NCBI GenBank assembly: GCA_015493635.1
Contig: WGCU01000013.1
Span: 25,006-89,005 of the forward strand
DNA length: 64,000 nt
From: Spirochaetaceae bacterium
GTDB lineage: Bacteria > Spirochaetota > Spirochaetia > B11-G9
Direction of reading: 5' to 3'
Shown here in pieces: positions 48,527 through 57,348 of this stretch. The position numbers were made by a program, and so were the translations under genes. Position 1 is the stretch's first letter; each line of letters begins with the position of its first letter. The notes under the pieces are model-generated. The model did no database searches and was not told the DNA's origin. It worked only from the letters and a program-made list of their open reading frames with translations.

Positions 48527-49972
48527 TCAGATATCTCCCTTCAGGTGAGCAAGATATTTTGAGATTGCTTCTGCGGCTCTGCTTCCCTCATTAATTCCCC
48601 GCACAACAAGGGAAGCTCCGGTGGAAGCATCTCCGGCAGTGAAAATTCCTTTACTACTTGTCATAAAACGGTCATCCCTCTTTATATTCCCCCGGGAGTC
48701 CAGCTCAACATCCAGATTTTTAACAAGTCCGGTATGATCCACATGCAAAAAACCCATGGCAAGAAGCACAAGATCAACCTTCAGGGTGAACTCAGTACCG
48801 GGAAGTTCTTTCATTTCAAAGCGCTTTTTATGTTCATTGTATAACCATTCAACCCGTGAAAAATGTGCTTCATTAAGGTGAATCCCATCCCGAGATGAAA
48901 AAAAGCGGGTGGATATACCCCAGTCCCGTACAGCTCCTTCATCCTGGGAAGTTGATGTCCTTAAAATTTTTGGCCAATCCGGCCACTCAGGATTCCAGCT
49001 TTCTTTCCATTCTCTCGGTTTCGGCATTATCTCATACTGGTGGACGCTTTCCGCGCCCTGCCTAATGGCTGTTCCAACACAGTCGGAACCAGTGTCTCCA
49101 CCGCCGATAACAAGAACCTTTTTATCTTTTGCAGATATAATATCGGAGTACGGAACACTTCCTTCAACGTACCTGTTTGATCCGGACAGATAATCAAGGG
49201 CAAAGTGGATCCCTTCAAGGCCTCTCCCGCCGGCAGGAAGATCACGGGGAGTTCCAGCCCCGAGAGCAAGGAGGACCGCATCAAAGGATTTTTTTAAATA
49301 CCGTACCGATATATCTTCACCAATTGATACATCCGTTTTAAAAATTATCCCCTCACGCTCCATGAGAGAAATTCTCCTGTCAAGAATACGTTTATCAAGC
49401 TTAAAATTTGGAATACCGTACCGTAAAAGACCACCGGCCCGGGACGATTTTTCAAAAACGGTAACAGAATGTCCAGCCCTTCTCAGAGCCTGAGCCGCAG
49501 AAAGACCTGTAGGTCCGGAGCCGACAACCGCAACACTTTTTCCTGTTTCCCGTACTGGAATCTCAGGGATAACCCAGCCCTCTTTAAATGCACGTTCAGC
49601 TATGGCAAATTCAATCTGTTTAATCGTCACCGGTGCATCATTGATGGACAGAGTGCATGAGGTTTCACAGGGGGCAGGACAGACACGTCCGGTAAACTCA
49701 GGAAAACTATTGGTCACAGAAAGTCTCCTCCATGCCTCTTTCCAGTCATTCCTGTATACAAGGTCATTCCATTCAGGAATAAGGTTTCCGAGAGGACACC
49801 CGAGGGAATGGCAGAACGGGAGACCGCAGTCCATACACCGTGCTCCTTGGATCTGTATTTCTTCATCAGATAGATAGGTGGTAAATTCATTGTAGTGTTT
49901 AATCCGGTTTTCGATCTTTTCATACGTTCCCGAAGCTCTTTTATACTCAATAAAACCTGTTATTTTTCCCAT
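48527..49972 (-). CDS. gltD: glutamate synthase, small (NADPH) subunit
   Basis: A 481-residue FAD/NAD(P) subunit. Two [4Fe-4S] cysteine groups (CMDCGLPFCHSLGCPLGN and CPAPCETSC), FAD Rossmann motif VVGSGPTGLSAAQALRRAG, and the pyridine nucleotide site LVIGGGDTGSDC. It feeds electrons to GltB. Start overlaps the gltB end by 13 bases. It faces pfp with a 12-base gap and no clear terminator between. Confidence 0.96.
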   Translation of the reverse strand: MGKITGFIEYKRASGTYEKIENRIKHYNEFTTYLSDEEIQIQGARCMDCGLPFCHSLGCPLGNLIPEWNDLVYRNDWKEAWRRLSVTNSFPEFTGRVCPAPCETSCTLSINDAPVTIKQIEFAIAERAFKEGWVIPEIPVRETGKSVAVVGSGPTGLSAAQALRRAGHSVTVFEKSSRAGGLLRYGIPNFKLDKRILDRRISLMEREGIIFKTDVSIGEDISVRYLKKSFDAVLLALGAGTPRDLPAGGRGLEGIHFALDYLSGSNRYVEGSVPYSDIISAKDKKVLVIGGGDTGSDCVGTAIRQGAESVHQYEIMPKPREWKESWNPEWPDWPKILRTSTSQDEGAVRDWGISTRFFSSRDGIHLNEAHFSRVEWLYNEHKKRFEMKELPGTEFTLKVDLVLLAMGFLHVDHTGLVKNLDVELDSRGNIKRDDRFMTSSKGIFTAGDASTGASLVVRGINEGSRAAEAISKYLAHLKGDI

Positions 49973-52900
49973 ATATCTACTCCTTCCGCCTGCATCTTTT
50001 CCAGAGCTTTACGGTATTCAACGGGAATCACCTTTACAAACGATGGAAGAGATTCTTCCCAGTGTCCCAATATTTTAGAAGCCTGTTCACTCTGTGTGCA
50101 TCTATGATGCTCCTCAATGCATTCCTTAAGACGGGTTATATCATCCTGTGCACTGACCGGTTCTATATCAACCATCTCCAGATTACAACGGGTATCAAAG
50201 AGCTGATCATCATCGAGAACGTACGCTATCCCTCCGCTCATACCCGCGGCAAAATTCAAGCCAGTCCGTCCGAGAACAACAACGACCCCCCCTGTCATAT
50301 ACTCACATCCATGATCTCCCACCCCTTCTACAACTGCTGTTGCGCCTGAATTCCGTACAGCAAAGCGCTCCCCTGCCATTCCGTTTACTAAAAGAACTCC
50401 TTCCGTGGCTCCGAAGAGAGCAACATTCCCTATTAGAATGTTATTTTCCGGCCTAAAAGTCGTTCCGGGAGACGGCGTAATGATAATTTTCCCTCCCGAC
50501 AGCCCTTTTCCCACATAATCGTTTGCAATACCGGTCAACTTCAAACTCATGCCCTTACATAGAAATGCACCGAAGCTTTGCCCGGCGCCCCCCTGTACTT
50601 CAAAAACCAATGAATCATCATCAAGACTTTCCTTACCGTACCGTTTAACAATTTCTCCGCTCATGTATGTGCCGAAAGATCTGTTACTGTTACGGATCTG
50701 TACAGGCAGGGTCAGCCTCTCTTTTTTTTCAATAACAGGAAGAATTTTCTTGAATACGACACTATCCAGGGTACCATCTATAAATTCCCAGCCTGTCATG
50801 TTCTTGCGTGTACACCGGTAACTTCCTCCCGGAGGCAGCGGTGGTTTTTGCAGCAGAGCACTAAAATCCAACCCCCTGTCTTTCCAGTAGGATACCGCTT
50901 CATTTACCTCAAGAATATCACTCTGCCCGATCATATCATCAAATTTACGGAATCCGAGGGACGCCATTATCTCCCTGACATCCTCTGCAACAAACATCAT
51001 GTAGTTGACAAGGTACTCAGGTTTCCCCTTGAAACGTTTCCGGAGTTCCGGATTCTGTGTCGCCACACCGACCGGACAGGTATTAAGATGGCACTTCCGC
51101 ATGAGAACACACCCCATCGTTACAAGACTTATGGTAGCAAACCCGAATTCCTCGGCCCCCAGAAGAGCCGCGATAACGACATCACGGCCGGTACGCAGCT
51201 GCCCGTCAGTCTGTATGCGAATACCTGACCGGAGATTATTGAGCACCAGCGTCTGTTGTGTTTCAGAAAGGCCAATTTCCCAGGGGATTCCTGCGTACTT
51301 GATTGAGGAAAGGGGAGAAGCTCCTGTACCGCCGTCATGTCCGCTGATAAGTACCATATCTGCTTTCCCTTTAGCCACACCGGCAGCTATAGTTCCTACA
51401 CCAACTTCCGAAACCAGTTTTACCGAAACCCGTGCATCCGGATTAGCGTTATGAAGATCGTATATTAACTGGGAAAGGTCTTCGATAGAATAGATATCAT
51501 GATGAGGCGGCGGGGATATCAGCGTAACCCCCGGAATGGAATGTCTGATCCGTGCAATGTTTATATCAACCTTGTGTCCGGGCAGCTGGCCACCCTCTCC
51601 TGGTTTTGCCCCCTGAGCCATCTTGATCTGCATCTCCCGGGCATTTACGAGGTAATTGATCGTTACACCGAAACGGCCGGATGATACCTGCTTTACGAAT
51701 GTTTTCGCAAGATCTCCGCCGGGAAGCGGTGCAAACCGTACTTCATCTTCCCCACCCTCACCGGAATTACTCATGGCGCCAAGTCTGTTCATTGCAATAG
51801 CTATCGTTTCGTGAGCTTCTTTACTGATTGAACCCATGGACATGGCTGATGAAGCAAAGCGTTTTACAATTTCCTCAGCGCTTTCAACCTCTTCCAGGGG
51901 GACAGGCTCTCTTTTTCTGAACGTAAACAAGCCGCGGAGGGTACAGAGATTTTTGCCGGCATTGTTGATGGCCCGGGCAAATTCACGATATTTTTCATAA
52001 CTCTTTTCCCGGACCGCTTTCTGAATGGTTACAACAACCTCAGGTGTCATAAGATGCTTTTCCGAATGCCTCCGATAATGGATAGTACCACCGGAATCAA
52101 GAGGAGGGAAAGGCGTGCTCTGCCCTTTAAACACCAGACGGTGCCGCTTTTCGATGGAAGCAGCAATTTCCTTTAAACCTACCCCTCCTATCCGTGTCGG
52201 AGTCCCGGGAAAATATTTTTCTATAAATGAAGGATGAAGTCCTACTGCTTCAAAAATCTGTGCCCCCTTGTAGCTCCTGATGGTGGATACACCCATCTTT
52301 GACATTATTTTTAAAAGTCCCTTTTTCAGGGATGCAATATAATTTTCAAACGCTTTATCCAGTTTGTCCAGTCCGTTTAATTTCCCCCTGTCCATGCGGT
52401 CTTTTATAATTTCAAACGCAAGATACGGATTAACCGCACTTGCACCATAACCGATGAGGGCAGCCATCTGCATGACATCTCTCACCTCTCCTGTTTCCAC
52501 GAGAAGTCCCGCCAGTTGTCTCCGCCGGGAATAGACAAGATGCTGATTTACTACGGAAATTGCCAGGAGAGCGGGAATGGGATATTCCTCTTCAGCCACA
52601 CCGCGGTCACTGAGAATAAGAAATGTATTTCCCTGGTCTATGAGTTCATCCGCCCTGGCACAAATATGTTCAAGAGATTCTTCAAGAGTTCTTCCCGGCT
52701 GCTCAGGATTGTATAGAATATCAATAACAGCTGCTGTCTGACCTTCCACATTTGCTTTTTTAAACATCAGCATATCATCGTTGGACAATACCGGATGGGA
52801 AAGCTTTAACTGTTTACAGTGAAGGGGGCCTTCCTCCAGTAGATTATGCTCCCTGCCTATAAAACTCATGAGAGACATGACAAGATTTTCACGGTACGGA

Positions 52901-54474
52901 TCAATGGGCGGATTGGTTACCTGGGCAAAAACCTGTCTGAAATAATTGTATAGAAGCTGAGGACGGTCAGACAGAACAGCAAGGGAAGCATCATTACCCA
53001 TGGAACTTATCGGCTCACTTCCCTGTACTGCCATAGGAATAAGTATTTTGTCTATTTCTTCAAGGGTATACCCGAAAACCCGTTCAAGTTTCTCAATATC
53101 ATCTTTCACCTCCAGATCGGTATCCGGAGCACGGAAAAGCCCTTTAAGCTCAATCCTGTTTTCATCAAGCCAGCGCCGGTACGGTTTCCGGCGGGATATT
53201 TTTGATTTAATTTCATGATCATACATAATCCGCTTCTGTCCGGTATCTACCATAAGCATCCTTCCCGGGCCGAGGCGTCCGTTTTTGAGAATATTTTCAG
53301 GCGGTATATCGAGAACACCCGCCTCCGATGCAAGAATAACTCTCCCGTCCTTTGTAACGAGCCACCGGGCTGGACGCAGACCGTTCCGGTCAAGGGATGC
53401 ACCGACCTTTATTCCATCAGAAAACACGAGAGCGGCCGGACCGTCCCATGGTTCAAGTATCGAAGCATGATACTCATAGAAGGTTCTTCGGTCTTCACTT
53501 ATATGATAACGCTTACCAAATGGCTCCGGTACCATCATCATCATGGTATGTTCCATTGAGCGCCCTCCCTGTACAAGGAGTTCAAAAGCAGTATCAAAAA
53601 TGGCAGAATCACTCTGCGTACTGTCAATGAGAGGGAAGATACGCTTTAAATCATCGCCAAAGAGCGGCGATGACAACATGGATTCCCGGGCACGCATCTT
53701 GCTGATATTCCCCCGTAAGGTGTTAATCTCACCATTATGCGCGATATATCTGAAAGGCTGAGCTAAAGACCATGAGGGGAATGTATTGGTGCTGTACCGT
53801 TGATGAACAAGTGCAATGGCACTCTTGAAGGTACGGTCCTGCAGATCCGGATAAAACTGCTCAAGCTGAGGAGCCACAAACATCCCTTTATAGATAATAG
53901 TCCTTGCTGAAAATGATGGGATATACAAGTCTTCAATCGTATAGCCCTTTAAAGCAGCGGCTTTTTCCACCAGACGACGCAGTACGTAAAGCTTTCGTTC
54001 CAGCTCATCTCCTGTAAGCCCCGGTACAGATACGAACATCTGGACAACAAACGGCATTGATAACCGGGCAGTTTCTCCAAGACAGTCCGGATTAACAGGG
54101 ACATCCCTCTGACCGATTATTTTTCCGCCGTTCTCCTCCAGGGTATTGTGAACGAGAAGCAGCAGAGCATCCCGTTTTTTACGGTCTGTTGGAAAAAACA
54201 TGACTCCCAGTCCGTAAGAACCCTGATCAGGAAGGCTGAAACCCAGAGATGACGCGGTCTTTGCAAAAAACTCTGCCGGTATCTGGGTTAAAATCCCTGC
54301 TCCATCCCCTGTATTGATGTCTCCTCCCACCGCGCCCCTATGAACAAGGTTCTTCAGTATCGTTATACCATCCTGTACCGTTTTAAAAGAGGGTATACCA
54401 TTAACCTCAGCAATAAACCCGACACCGCAGTTATCATGTTCAAATTCAGGATTGTAGAGTCCCTGTTTTTCCAT
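49960..54474 (-). CDS. gltB: glutamate synthase, large subunit
   Basis: A 1504-residue enzyme converting glutamine + 2-oxoglutarate to two glutamates. N-terminal Ntn amidotransferase with the catalytic Cys16 (HDNCGVGF, to be exposed by removing a 15-residue propeptide), central domain, FMN/synthase domain (SSGRFGVTINYLVNAREMQIKMAQGAKPGEGGQLPG), the [3Fe-4S] cysteines in CVLMRKCHLNTCPVG, and the C-terminal GXGXG beta-helix. Has its own strong promoter, with a dyad at the transcription start that probably binds the neighbouring NrpR-like repressor. Confidence 0.97.
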   Translation of the reverse strand: MEKQGLYNPEFEHDNCGVGFIAEVNGIPSFKTVQDGITILKNLVHRGAVGGDINTGDGAGILTQIPAEFFAKTASSLGFSLPDQGSYGLGVMFFPTDRKKRDALLLLVHNTLEENGGKIIGQRDVPVNPDCLGETARLSMPFVVQMFVSVPGLTGDELERKLYVLRRLVEKAAALKGYTIEDLYIPSFSARTIIYKGMFVAPQLEQFYPDLQDRTFKSAIALVHQRYSTNTFPSWSLAQPFRYIAHNGEINTLRGNISKMRARESMLSSPLFGDDLKRIFPLIDSTQSDSAIFDTAFELLVQGGRSMEHTMMMMVPEPFGKRYHISEDRRTFYEYHASILEPWDGPAALVFSDGIKVGASLDRNGLRPARWLVTKDGRVILASEAGVLDIPPENILKNGRLGPGRMLMVDTGQKRIMYDHEIKSKISRRKPYRRWLDENRIELKGLFRAPDTDLEVKDDIEKLERVFGYTLEEIDKILIPMAVQGSEPISSMGNDASLAVLSDRPQLLYNYFRQVFAQVTNPPIDPYRENLVMSLMSFIGREHNLLEEGPLHCKQLKLSHPVLSNDDMLMFKKANVEGQTAAVIDILYNPEQPGRTLEESLEHICARADELIDQGNTFLILSDRGVAEEEYPIPALLAISVVNQHLVYSRRRQLAGLLVETGEVRDVMQMAALIGYGASAVNPYLAFEIIKDRMDRGKLNGLDKLDKAFENYIASLKKGLLKIMSKMGVSTIRSYKGAQIFEAVGLHPSFIEKYFPGTPTRIGGVGLKEIAASIEKRHRLVFKGQSTPFPPLDSGGTIHYRRHSEKHLMTPEVVVTIQKAVREKSYEKYREFARAINNAGKNLCTLRGLFTFRKREPVPLEEVESAEEIVKRFASSAMSMGSISKEAHETIAIAMNRLGAMSNSGEGGEDEVRFAPLPGGDLAKTFVKQVSSGRFGVTINYLVNAREMQIKMAQGAKPGEGGQLPGHKVDINIARIRHSIPGVTLISPPPHHDIYSIEDLSQLIYDLHNANPDARVSVKLVSEVGVGTIAAGVAKGKADMVLISGHDGGTGASPLSSIKYAGIPWEIGLSETQQTLVLNNLRSGIRIQTDGQLRTGRDVVIAALLGAEEFGFATISLVTMGCVLMRKCHLNTCPVGVATQNPELRKRFKGKPEYLVNYMMFVAEDVREIMASLGFRKFDDMIGQSDILEVNEAVSYWKDRGLDFSALLQKPPLPPGGSYRCTRKNMTGWEFIDGTLDSVVFKKILPVIEKKERLTLPVQIRNSNRSFGTYMSGEIVKRYGKESLDDDSLVFEVQGGAGQSFGAFLCKGMSLKLTGIANDYVGKGLSGGKIIITPSPGTTFRPENNILIGNVALFGATEGVLLVNGMAGERFAVRNSGATAVVEGVGDHGCEYMTGGVVVVLGRTGLNFAAGMSGGIAYVLDDDQLFDTRCNLEMVDIEPVSAQDDITRLKECIEEHHRCTQSEQASKILGHWEESLPSFVKVIPVEYRKALEKMQAEGVDIWEK

Positions 54475-54490
54475 ATGCTTTATCCTCCGA

Positions 54491-54520
54491 TATTTTATGG
54501 CATTTTATTGCCGTAAAATA
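54491..54520. promoter_or_regulatory. 30-bp inverted repeat at the gltB transcription start, candidate NrpR operator
   Basis: TATTTTATGGC-N8-GCCGTAAAATA, 10 of 11 positions symmetric. The core is GGCA-N6-TGCC. It begins at the expected +1 of the gltB promoter. The archaeal NrpR operator in Methanococcus maripaludis is GGAA-N6-TTCC, the same geometry with a different third base. Operator identity is inferred. Confidence 0.65.
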
Positions 54521-54526
54521 TTTTTA

Positions 54527-54555
54527 AGCATAGTACTATTCTCTCATGATGTCAA
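54527..54555 (-). promoter_or_regulatory. sigma-70 promoter of gltB
   Basis: Minus strand: TTGACA (54550-54555), 17-base spacer, TATGCT (54527-54532), near consensus. Predicted +1 at about 54520, the edge of the dyad. CGGAGGA ribosome binding site follows. Confidence 0.8.
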
Positions 54556-54573: not shown

Positions 54574-55569
54574 TTAAAACATTCTTTTAAGTTCGTGGAA
54601 TTCAACAAGAGAGCTGTATTCAACCAAGCCGCTTATTGCCTTGGAAATAACAGATATTCCACTCTCTTCCAGATAAGCAACCGGATTCAAACCGCCGACA
54701 ATAACTCCGCCAAGCCGGCCCCAGTCTATTGGTATCTGCAAAAGTGAGTGCCCCGGCCAGCCAAGACGTAAAAATCCCCCAAGCCCGTCACGCTCCATTA
54801 TTTTTCCAATTTCCACCACCCTCTTTAGAGAATCTGCCGGTACTTCCAGAAAATTTGCCCCTATGCTTCCGCTGCCGGAGTGAACAACCTCACGATAACG
54901 GATCATCCCGCTTTTAATAAAAATTTCGAGAGGATCAATACTTGTACCATCATACCTGACTATCTGGGTAAACCGGAGAGGGTCCCTGTTTTCAATCTCC
55001 AGGATTCCTCCAAAAATAGCCCGGACAGGTATTCCGTTCCTGCCGATTACACCATGGAGTGTTACAGAACAAACGGTTCCGATACCGACATAACCGGAAG
55101 GAATTGTTTCGCCTCCGACACTTTCTCCTGAAAGATAAATTCCGATAAGTCTGCCCATGGAGAATCCGCTCTCAAATGCAGTTACAAGCATGGATGAGGC
55201 TTCTTTCATAAACCTTTCTTCAATAAGGCTGATATTTACAACAACGGTACCTGCTTTCCTGTCAGGATCGTAGTTCATCTTATAAGTAAGGAGATCTATC
55301 TTTGCGGTAATAAATCCCACTTTTTCAAAAACACGGGATTTTTCCAGTTCATCCGAACCCTTCTCGGTAATAACTCTCCCGTGCTTTTTTACATACGCTG
55401 TAAGACCCTGTCTATCCAGCTCTATAAGATGAAGGCGCACCGTTCGTTCACTCATATCAATACCCATACGGGAAAATGCTTCGGTAAGTTTCGCACTGGA
55501 AACAGGATGATCACTCTCACTGAGTATACGGAGAATTGCCAATCTCTTTTTTTCTATTCTTTCTCTCAT
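54574..55569 (-). CDS. NrpR-like transcriptional repressor
   Basis: A 331-residue protein. N-terminal winged helix (residues about 1-70, KKRLAILRILSESDHPVSSAKLTEAFSRMG; ERTVRLHLIELDRQGL) followed by a single NrpR domain (about 80-325, DUF128-type, for example RLIGIYLSGESVGGETIPSGYVGIGTVCSV and GGVIVGGLNPVAYLEE). In methanogens NrpR represses nitrogen genes and is released by 2-oxoglutarate. The archaeal protein often has two such domains; this one has one. It lies between gltB and the NifA-like activator. No Shine-Dalgarno precedes the ATG. A role as nitrogen repressor is inferred from family plus context. Confidence 0.88.
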   Translation of the reverse strand: MRERIEKKRLAILRILSESDHPVSSAKLTEAFSRMGIDMSERTVRLHLIELDRQGLTAYVKKHGRVITEKGSDELEKSRVFEKVGFITAKIDLLTYKMNYDPDRKAGTVVVNISLIEERFMKEASSMLVTAFESGFSMGRLIGIYLSGESVGGETIPSGYVGIGTVCSVTLHGVIGRNGIPVRAIFGGILEIENRDPLRFTQIVRYDGTSIDPLEIFIKSGMIRYREVVHSGSGSIGANFLEVPADSLKRVVEIGKIMERDGLGGFLRLGWPGHSLLQIPIDWGRLGGVIVGGLNPVAYLEESGISVISKAISGLVEYSSLVEFHELKRMF

Positions 55570-55628: not shown

Positions 55629-55657
55629 TTGATAATAATCCTACATTTATGTAGTAT
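55629..55657 (+). promoter_or_regulatory. promoter of the NifA-like gene with embedded dyad
   Basis: TTGATA (55629-55634), 17-base spacer, TAGTAT (55652-55657). The ATG at 55665 begins 7 bases after the -10, so +1 is about the A of ATG. The dyad CTACATTTATGTAG (55641-55654) covers the spacer and half the -10; a bound regulator would block polymerase. Confidence 0.6.
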
Positions 55658-57199: not shown

Positions 57200-57224
57200 T
57201 GTTTTATATTCTACATTTTTGTAG
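57200..57224. promoter_or_regulatory. candidate upstream activator sites for amtB
   Basis: CTACATTTTTGTAG (57211-57224) repeats the dyad CTACA-N4-TGTAG of the NifA-like gene's promoter. Overlapping it is TGT-N10-ACA (57200-57215), the classical NifA site pattern. Both lie about 110-130 bases before the -24 element, the normal distance for enhancer binding. The dyad is followed by T6, so a weak terminator for the upstream gene is an alternative reading. Confidence 0.55.
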
Positions 57225-57330: not shown

Positions 57331-57348
57331 TTGGCATAACTTATGCTT
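57331..57348 (+). promoter_or_regulatory. sigma-54 (-24/-12) promoter of amtB-glnK-glnN
   Basis: TTGGCATAACTTATGCTT: GG at 57333-57334 and GC at 57345-57346 with exactly 10 bases between, as sigma-54 requires. It lies 24 bases before the GTG of amtB and behind an activator gene. Confidence 0.85.

Follow-up and report, generated by a model that had tools for sequence, protein, structure and literature searches.

The window analysed here is a 64-kb stretch of a Spirochaetaceae genome in which the genes for a predicted nitrogen regulator (nrpR) and glutamate synthase (gltB) lie on the same strand, with nrpR upstream and 99 bp between them. ORF starts were assigned mechanically. The locus comprises the following features:

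54574..55569, minus strand: nrpR, 331 aa, with an HTH_12 winged helix and one NRD1_2 domain (Pfam, own-genome search and 3NEK matches)
54527..54555, minus strand: sigma-70-type gltB promoter, with TTGACA at 54550-54555, N17 and TATGCT at 54527-54532
54490..54521, minus strand: candidate NrpR operator, a 32-bp dyad ATATTTTACGGCA-ATAAAA-TGCCATAAAATAT (sequence, shuffles and conservation)
49960..54474, minus strand: gltB, glutamate synthase large subunit, 1504 aa, the proposed regulated gene (ORF; PF00310 match at G000:C13:78175-79434)

The original prediction placed an NrpR-like gene about 100 bases from gltB. We found that this gene encodes a true NrpR, with the N-terminal DNA-binding domain typical of the family (Pfam accession PF08461, HTH_12, 60 bits, residues 11-75) and an NRD regulatory domain (Pfam accession PF01995, 248.6 bits). 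The closest solved structure is the NrpR-like protein MJ0159 (3NEK; sequence match 1e-24), and a structural model of the protein (mean pLDDT 88) adopts the 3NEK fold (TM 0.9 on target, rmsd 2.0). Methanosarcina NrpRI has one HTH plus an NRD, a layout that the protein shares. The genome encodes a single NRD protein and thus lacks an NRD-only partner of the Methanosarcina type (NrpRII). The presence of NrpR in Bacteria is already known, as homologues of the same family have been noted in ‘certain Bacteria’ (PMC2723118, citing Lie et al. 2007). We identified related nrpR loci in Spirochaetes, Deltaproteobacteria/Desulfobacterales, Nitrospirae, Omnitrophota, Planctomycetota, Actinomycetota, WOR-1 and other lineages.

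Read along the minus strand, the region runs TTGACA-N17-TATGCT-TAAAA-ATATTTTACGGCA-ATAAAA-TGCCATAAAATAT-CGGAGG...ATG(gltB). The dyad predicted from the sequence, TATTTTATGGC-N8-GCCGTAAAATA at 54491-54520, is present letter for letter and extends by one further pair on each side, so that 12 of 13 arm pairs match over 32 bp. Its core, GGCA-N6-TGCC, spans 54499-54512 (GGCA at 54499-54502 and TGCC at 54509-54512). The promoter reads as proposed, placing the dyad between promoter and gltB start codon, and the predicted +1 (~54520) falls at the edge of the dyad, in line with the claim that the two coincide.

The dyad is not a chance palindrome: when the 99-bp nrpR–gltB gap was shuffled 5000 times with dinucleotide content preserved, no shuffle reached 12 of 13 arm pairs, and the GGCA-N6-TGCC core arose in two. 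The bare 8-base core is unremarkable by itself (one found vs 0.7 expected in the window), so it is the long arms and the conservation that carry the case. The full dyad pattern occurs once without mismatch in the 3.27-Mb genome, at gltB. The search before nitrogen genes that had been proposed as a check thus bore out the gltB site as the sole perfect match; no GGCA-N6 dyad was found upstream of amtB, and the whole-genome pattern search yielded no second zero-mismatch site that would mark a wider regulon. Most of the one- and two-mismatch matches that we checked fall within ORFs, and many are a contig-end repeat. In a separate observation, TTTTTGGCTTTTAGATGCTCTAAA lies no more than ~60 bases from the start of many G000 contigs (for example, C5:34-57, C30:28-51 and C57:34-57), indicating that a multi-copy repeat breaks this assembly.

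The dyad is conserved among relatives. All 11 loci in which nrpR adjoins gltB, including the locus described here, have it before gltB. The consensus of 27 gltB sites is TTTWRYGGCAATnnATTGCCRYAAAA, and N6 is the preferred spacing, with cores of GGCA-N6-TGCC in 26 sites and GGTA-N6-TGCC in one. A TTGAC-type -35 element with N16-18 and a -10-like hexamer precedes 25 of the 27. All 27 dyads lie between the inside of the -10 element and ~20 bp past it: the distance from the -10 to the core start is mostly 13-16 bp in families f1 and f5 and mostly 3-6 bp in f26, and in most of f23 the core overlaps the -10. When helical phasing was considered, the offsets from the -10 formed only three clusters (-8, +4 and +14). 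These placements are repressor positions.

Presence of the gltB site tracks presence of NrpR. The NRD domain occurs in 40 of 198 Spirochaetia genomes (39 above the curated cut-off). We compared 101 Spirochaetia genomes with a gltB upstream region, 38 with NrpR and 63 in which NrpR was not detected, absence being judged from draft genomes. Exact GGCA-N6-TGCC precedes gltB in 24/38 genomes with NrpR and 2/63 without (Fisher p = 2e-11), and the looser GGYA-N6-TRCC in 25/38 and 5/63 (p = 1e-9); because the genomes are related, these p-values overstate independence, and a within-family contrast is the safer figure. Within the four families chosen because they use the site, it is present in 25/25 evaluable genomes with NrpR vs 2/7 without (p = 1e-4). 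Absence of the motif from NrpR-keeping relatives, which the original prediction had named as evidence against it, was thus not seen in these families. Spacing of N4 was found before gltB in seven genomes with NrpR and none without (Fisher p = 7e-4), and spacings other than N6 and N4 in 0-2 genomes per group.

The association also holds in trans. Five congeneric genomes (G026, G090, G101, G121 and G129) keep the gltB site although nrpR is distant from gltB or on another contig, so the association cannot be put down to adjacency. Two genomes keep the site without a detected NrpR (G075, 89% complete, and G186, 71% complete), and their kin groups otherwise have nrpR; assembly gaps or recent loss of nrpR would explain both. 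The NrpR-containing families f6, f13, f16, f29 and f32 have no gltB site, and in a few of them none was found near nrpR either. Families with NrpR and no gltB site mostly have one before glutamate dehydrogenase (GDH) or a short glutamate synthase adjoining nrpR. Some f26 genomes also have N6 sites directly upstream of nrpR, and G144 has further sites before an SNF-family symporter and a periplasmic binding protein.

Similar dyads occur at nrpR loci of other phyla. When spacings were counted over 80 named nrpR loci, GGCAA-Nn-TTGCC was commonest with N2 (29) and N4 (24), which correspond to GGCA-N4 and GGCA-N6. GGTAA-N4-TTACC was found nine times vs 0-2 at other spacings, and GGAA dyads showed no spacing peak in these bacterial loci. 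In Desulfobacterota, Omnitrophota, Planctomycetota and others, N6 dyads of the GGCA or GGTA type stand before the GDH gene, a short glutamate synthase gene or glnA:

N6 dyad beside GDH: L007, L010, L087, L096, L101, L102, L104, L129, L135, L151
N6 dyad beside short glutamate synthase: L089, L097, L100, L103, L124, L133, L148
N6 dyad beside GlnA: L155

The dyads are thus found at nitrogen-assimilation promoters (gltB, gdh, short glutamate synthase and glnA), and GGYA-N6-TRCC dyads of nrpR loci precede nrpR itself as well. Many non-spirochaete nrpR loci contained no strict-pattern site, so the operator code is incomplete outside Spirochaetia and Desulfobacterota. No clear single recognition-helix residue was seen to track GGCA vs GGTA half-sites. 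In Nitrospirota, we also observed GGTA-N6-TACC dyads before a ~420-aa HTH_3 protein (L115:2941-4203, L120:2944-4206 and L123:2894-4165), and the L120 protein has a KaiC-like ATPase match.

A second dyad class, CGGCAA-N2-TTGCCG (GGCA-N4-TGCC), lies about 110-280 bp from its N6 partner and, in many loci, 50-115 bp ahead of nrpR:

N4 dyad examples: L087:7021, L096:7225, L108:3285, L127:1597, L133:5905, L142:5888, others

The N4 dyad is a candidate autoregulatory or looping site, and a pattern search found no perfect copy in the genome described here. We tentatively raise the possibility, which we rate at somewhat below even, that the same bacterial NrpR uses two operator classes, GGCA-N6-TGCC at the target and GGCA-N4-TGCC 110-280 bp away, for autoregulation and DNA looping. 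An NrpR dimer that tolerates a 2-bp change in spacing would be unusual.

Several observations bear on which factor, if any, reads the gltB dyad. The dyad might be the operator of another transcription factor that tends to be kept or lost together with nrpR, such as the divergently encoded GAF-AAA-HTH_8 activator, whose gene adjoins nrpR both here and in family f23. We consider this unlikely: the activator is not beside nrpR or gltB in the dyad-keeping loci L009, L018, L026, L028 and L031, it has a separate candidate site, CTACATTTWTGTAG, and dyads occur at nrpR loci of many phyla, with nrpR the gene in common. The only two zero-mismatch copies of CTACATTTWTGTAG in the genome are just before the gene for this sigma-54 activator (window 55641-55654; likely ATG 55666) and before amtB-glnK-glnN (57211-57224). 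The sequence likewise lies close to the beginning of the activator gene in relatives L014, L015, L016, L033 and L264, and it is likely the activator's own binding site.

Another reading is that the dyad forms a hairpin in the gltB leader RNA, serving as an attenuator, a stabiliser or a control of the ribosome site. Such a fold is possible in the transcript (-10.2 kcal/mol, z -3.5), and the ribosome-binding site is adjacent. Such a role is disfavoured and appears very improbable. Across the 27 gltB sites, the two arms covary no more than shuffled arms do (106 of 500 shuffled-arm sets reached their score), and the dyad has no Rfam match. At the variable RY positions, the choice in one half is independent of that in the other, as expected for two half-sites read by protein. 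In family f23 the dyad encloses the -10, and its full length would therefore not be transcribed. Finally, the TGGCA-N-TTGC part resembles TGGCAC-N5-TTGC, the sigma-54 -24/-12 promoter, and lies not far from the gene for a sigma-54 activator, but sigma-54 promoters require GG-N10-GC, the spacing is GG-N9-GC in 27/27 sites, and the dyad is symmetric and accompanied by a TTGACA/TATAAT-type promoter, which together leave this reading practically no chance. Before amtB, TGGCATAACTTATGCTT (window 57332-57348) has GG-N10-GC spacing and looks like a sigma-54 -24/-12 element, whereas gltB has a sigma-70 promoter.

The archaeal NrpR operator of Methanococcus maripaludis, GGAA-N6-TTCC, precedes nif, glnK-amtB, glnA and other genes (PMC2723118). 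As the original prediction noted, the bacterial dyad agrees with this published operator in half-site length and N6 spacing. Both are inverted repeats of four-base half-sites starting with GG, and the two systems share a repressor with a winged helix and NRD as well as nitrogen-assimilation targets. The exact archaeal sequence is not matched, as the third base is C in the bacterial sites, or T in GGTA types. The protein is therefore a member of the NrpR family, and its operator a variant of the archaeal one. Unlike archaeal sites, the bacterial ones lie at a sigma-70-type promoter, and their targets are mainly glutamate synthase (GOGAT) and GDH, with amtB, glnK and nif not prominent.

We conclude that the dyad is very probably the operator of the NrpR encoded upstream, located at the gltB -10/+1, from which NrpR would repress gltB until released by 2-oxoglutarate. 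We infer physical binding and repression as follows. Each winged helix of an NrpR dimer would contact one RYGGCA half-site across the fixed N6 spacer, and NrpR on the -10/+1 of the sigma-70 promoter would block the start by RNA polymerase. By analogy with archaeal NrpR, 2-oxoglutarate would rise when nitrogen is low and bind the NRD domain; NrpR would then leave the DNA, allowing glutamate synthase to be made. The best reading is that a bacterial NrpR acts through this operator to repress glutamate-forming enzymes.

So far NrpR has been studied as a nitrogen repressor of archaeal methanogens. Bacterial homologues have been noted, and the literature searched, with key subscription papers outside its reach, contained no study of them and no bacterial NrpR operator or regulon. 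Our analysis predicts a bacterial operator code (RYGGCA-N6-TGCCRY, or the GGTA type) and a coherent set of targets, GOGAT and GDH, enzymes that consume 2-oxoglutarate. Code and targets together would provide a nitrogen-control circuit for uncultured members of several bacterial phyla, with one repressor family acting at both archaeal and sigma-70 promoters.
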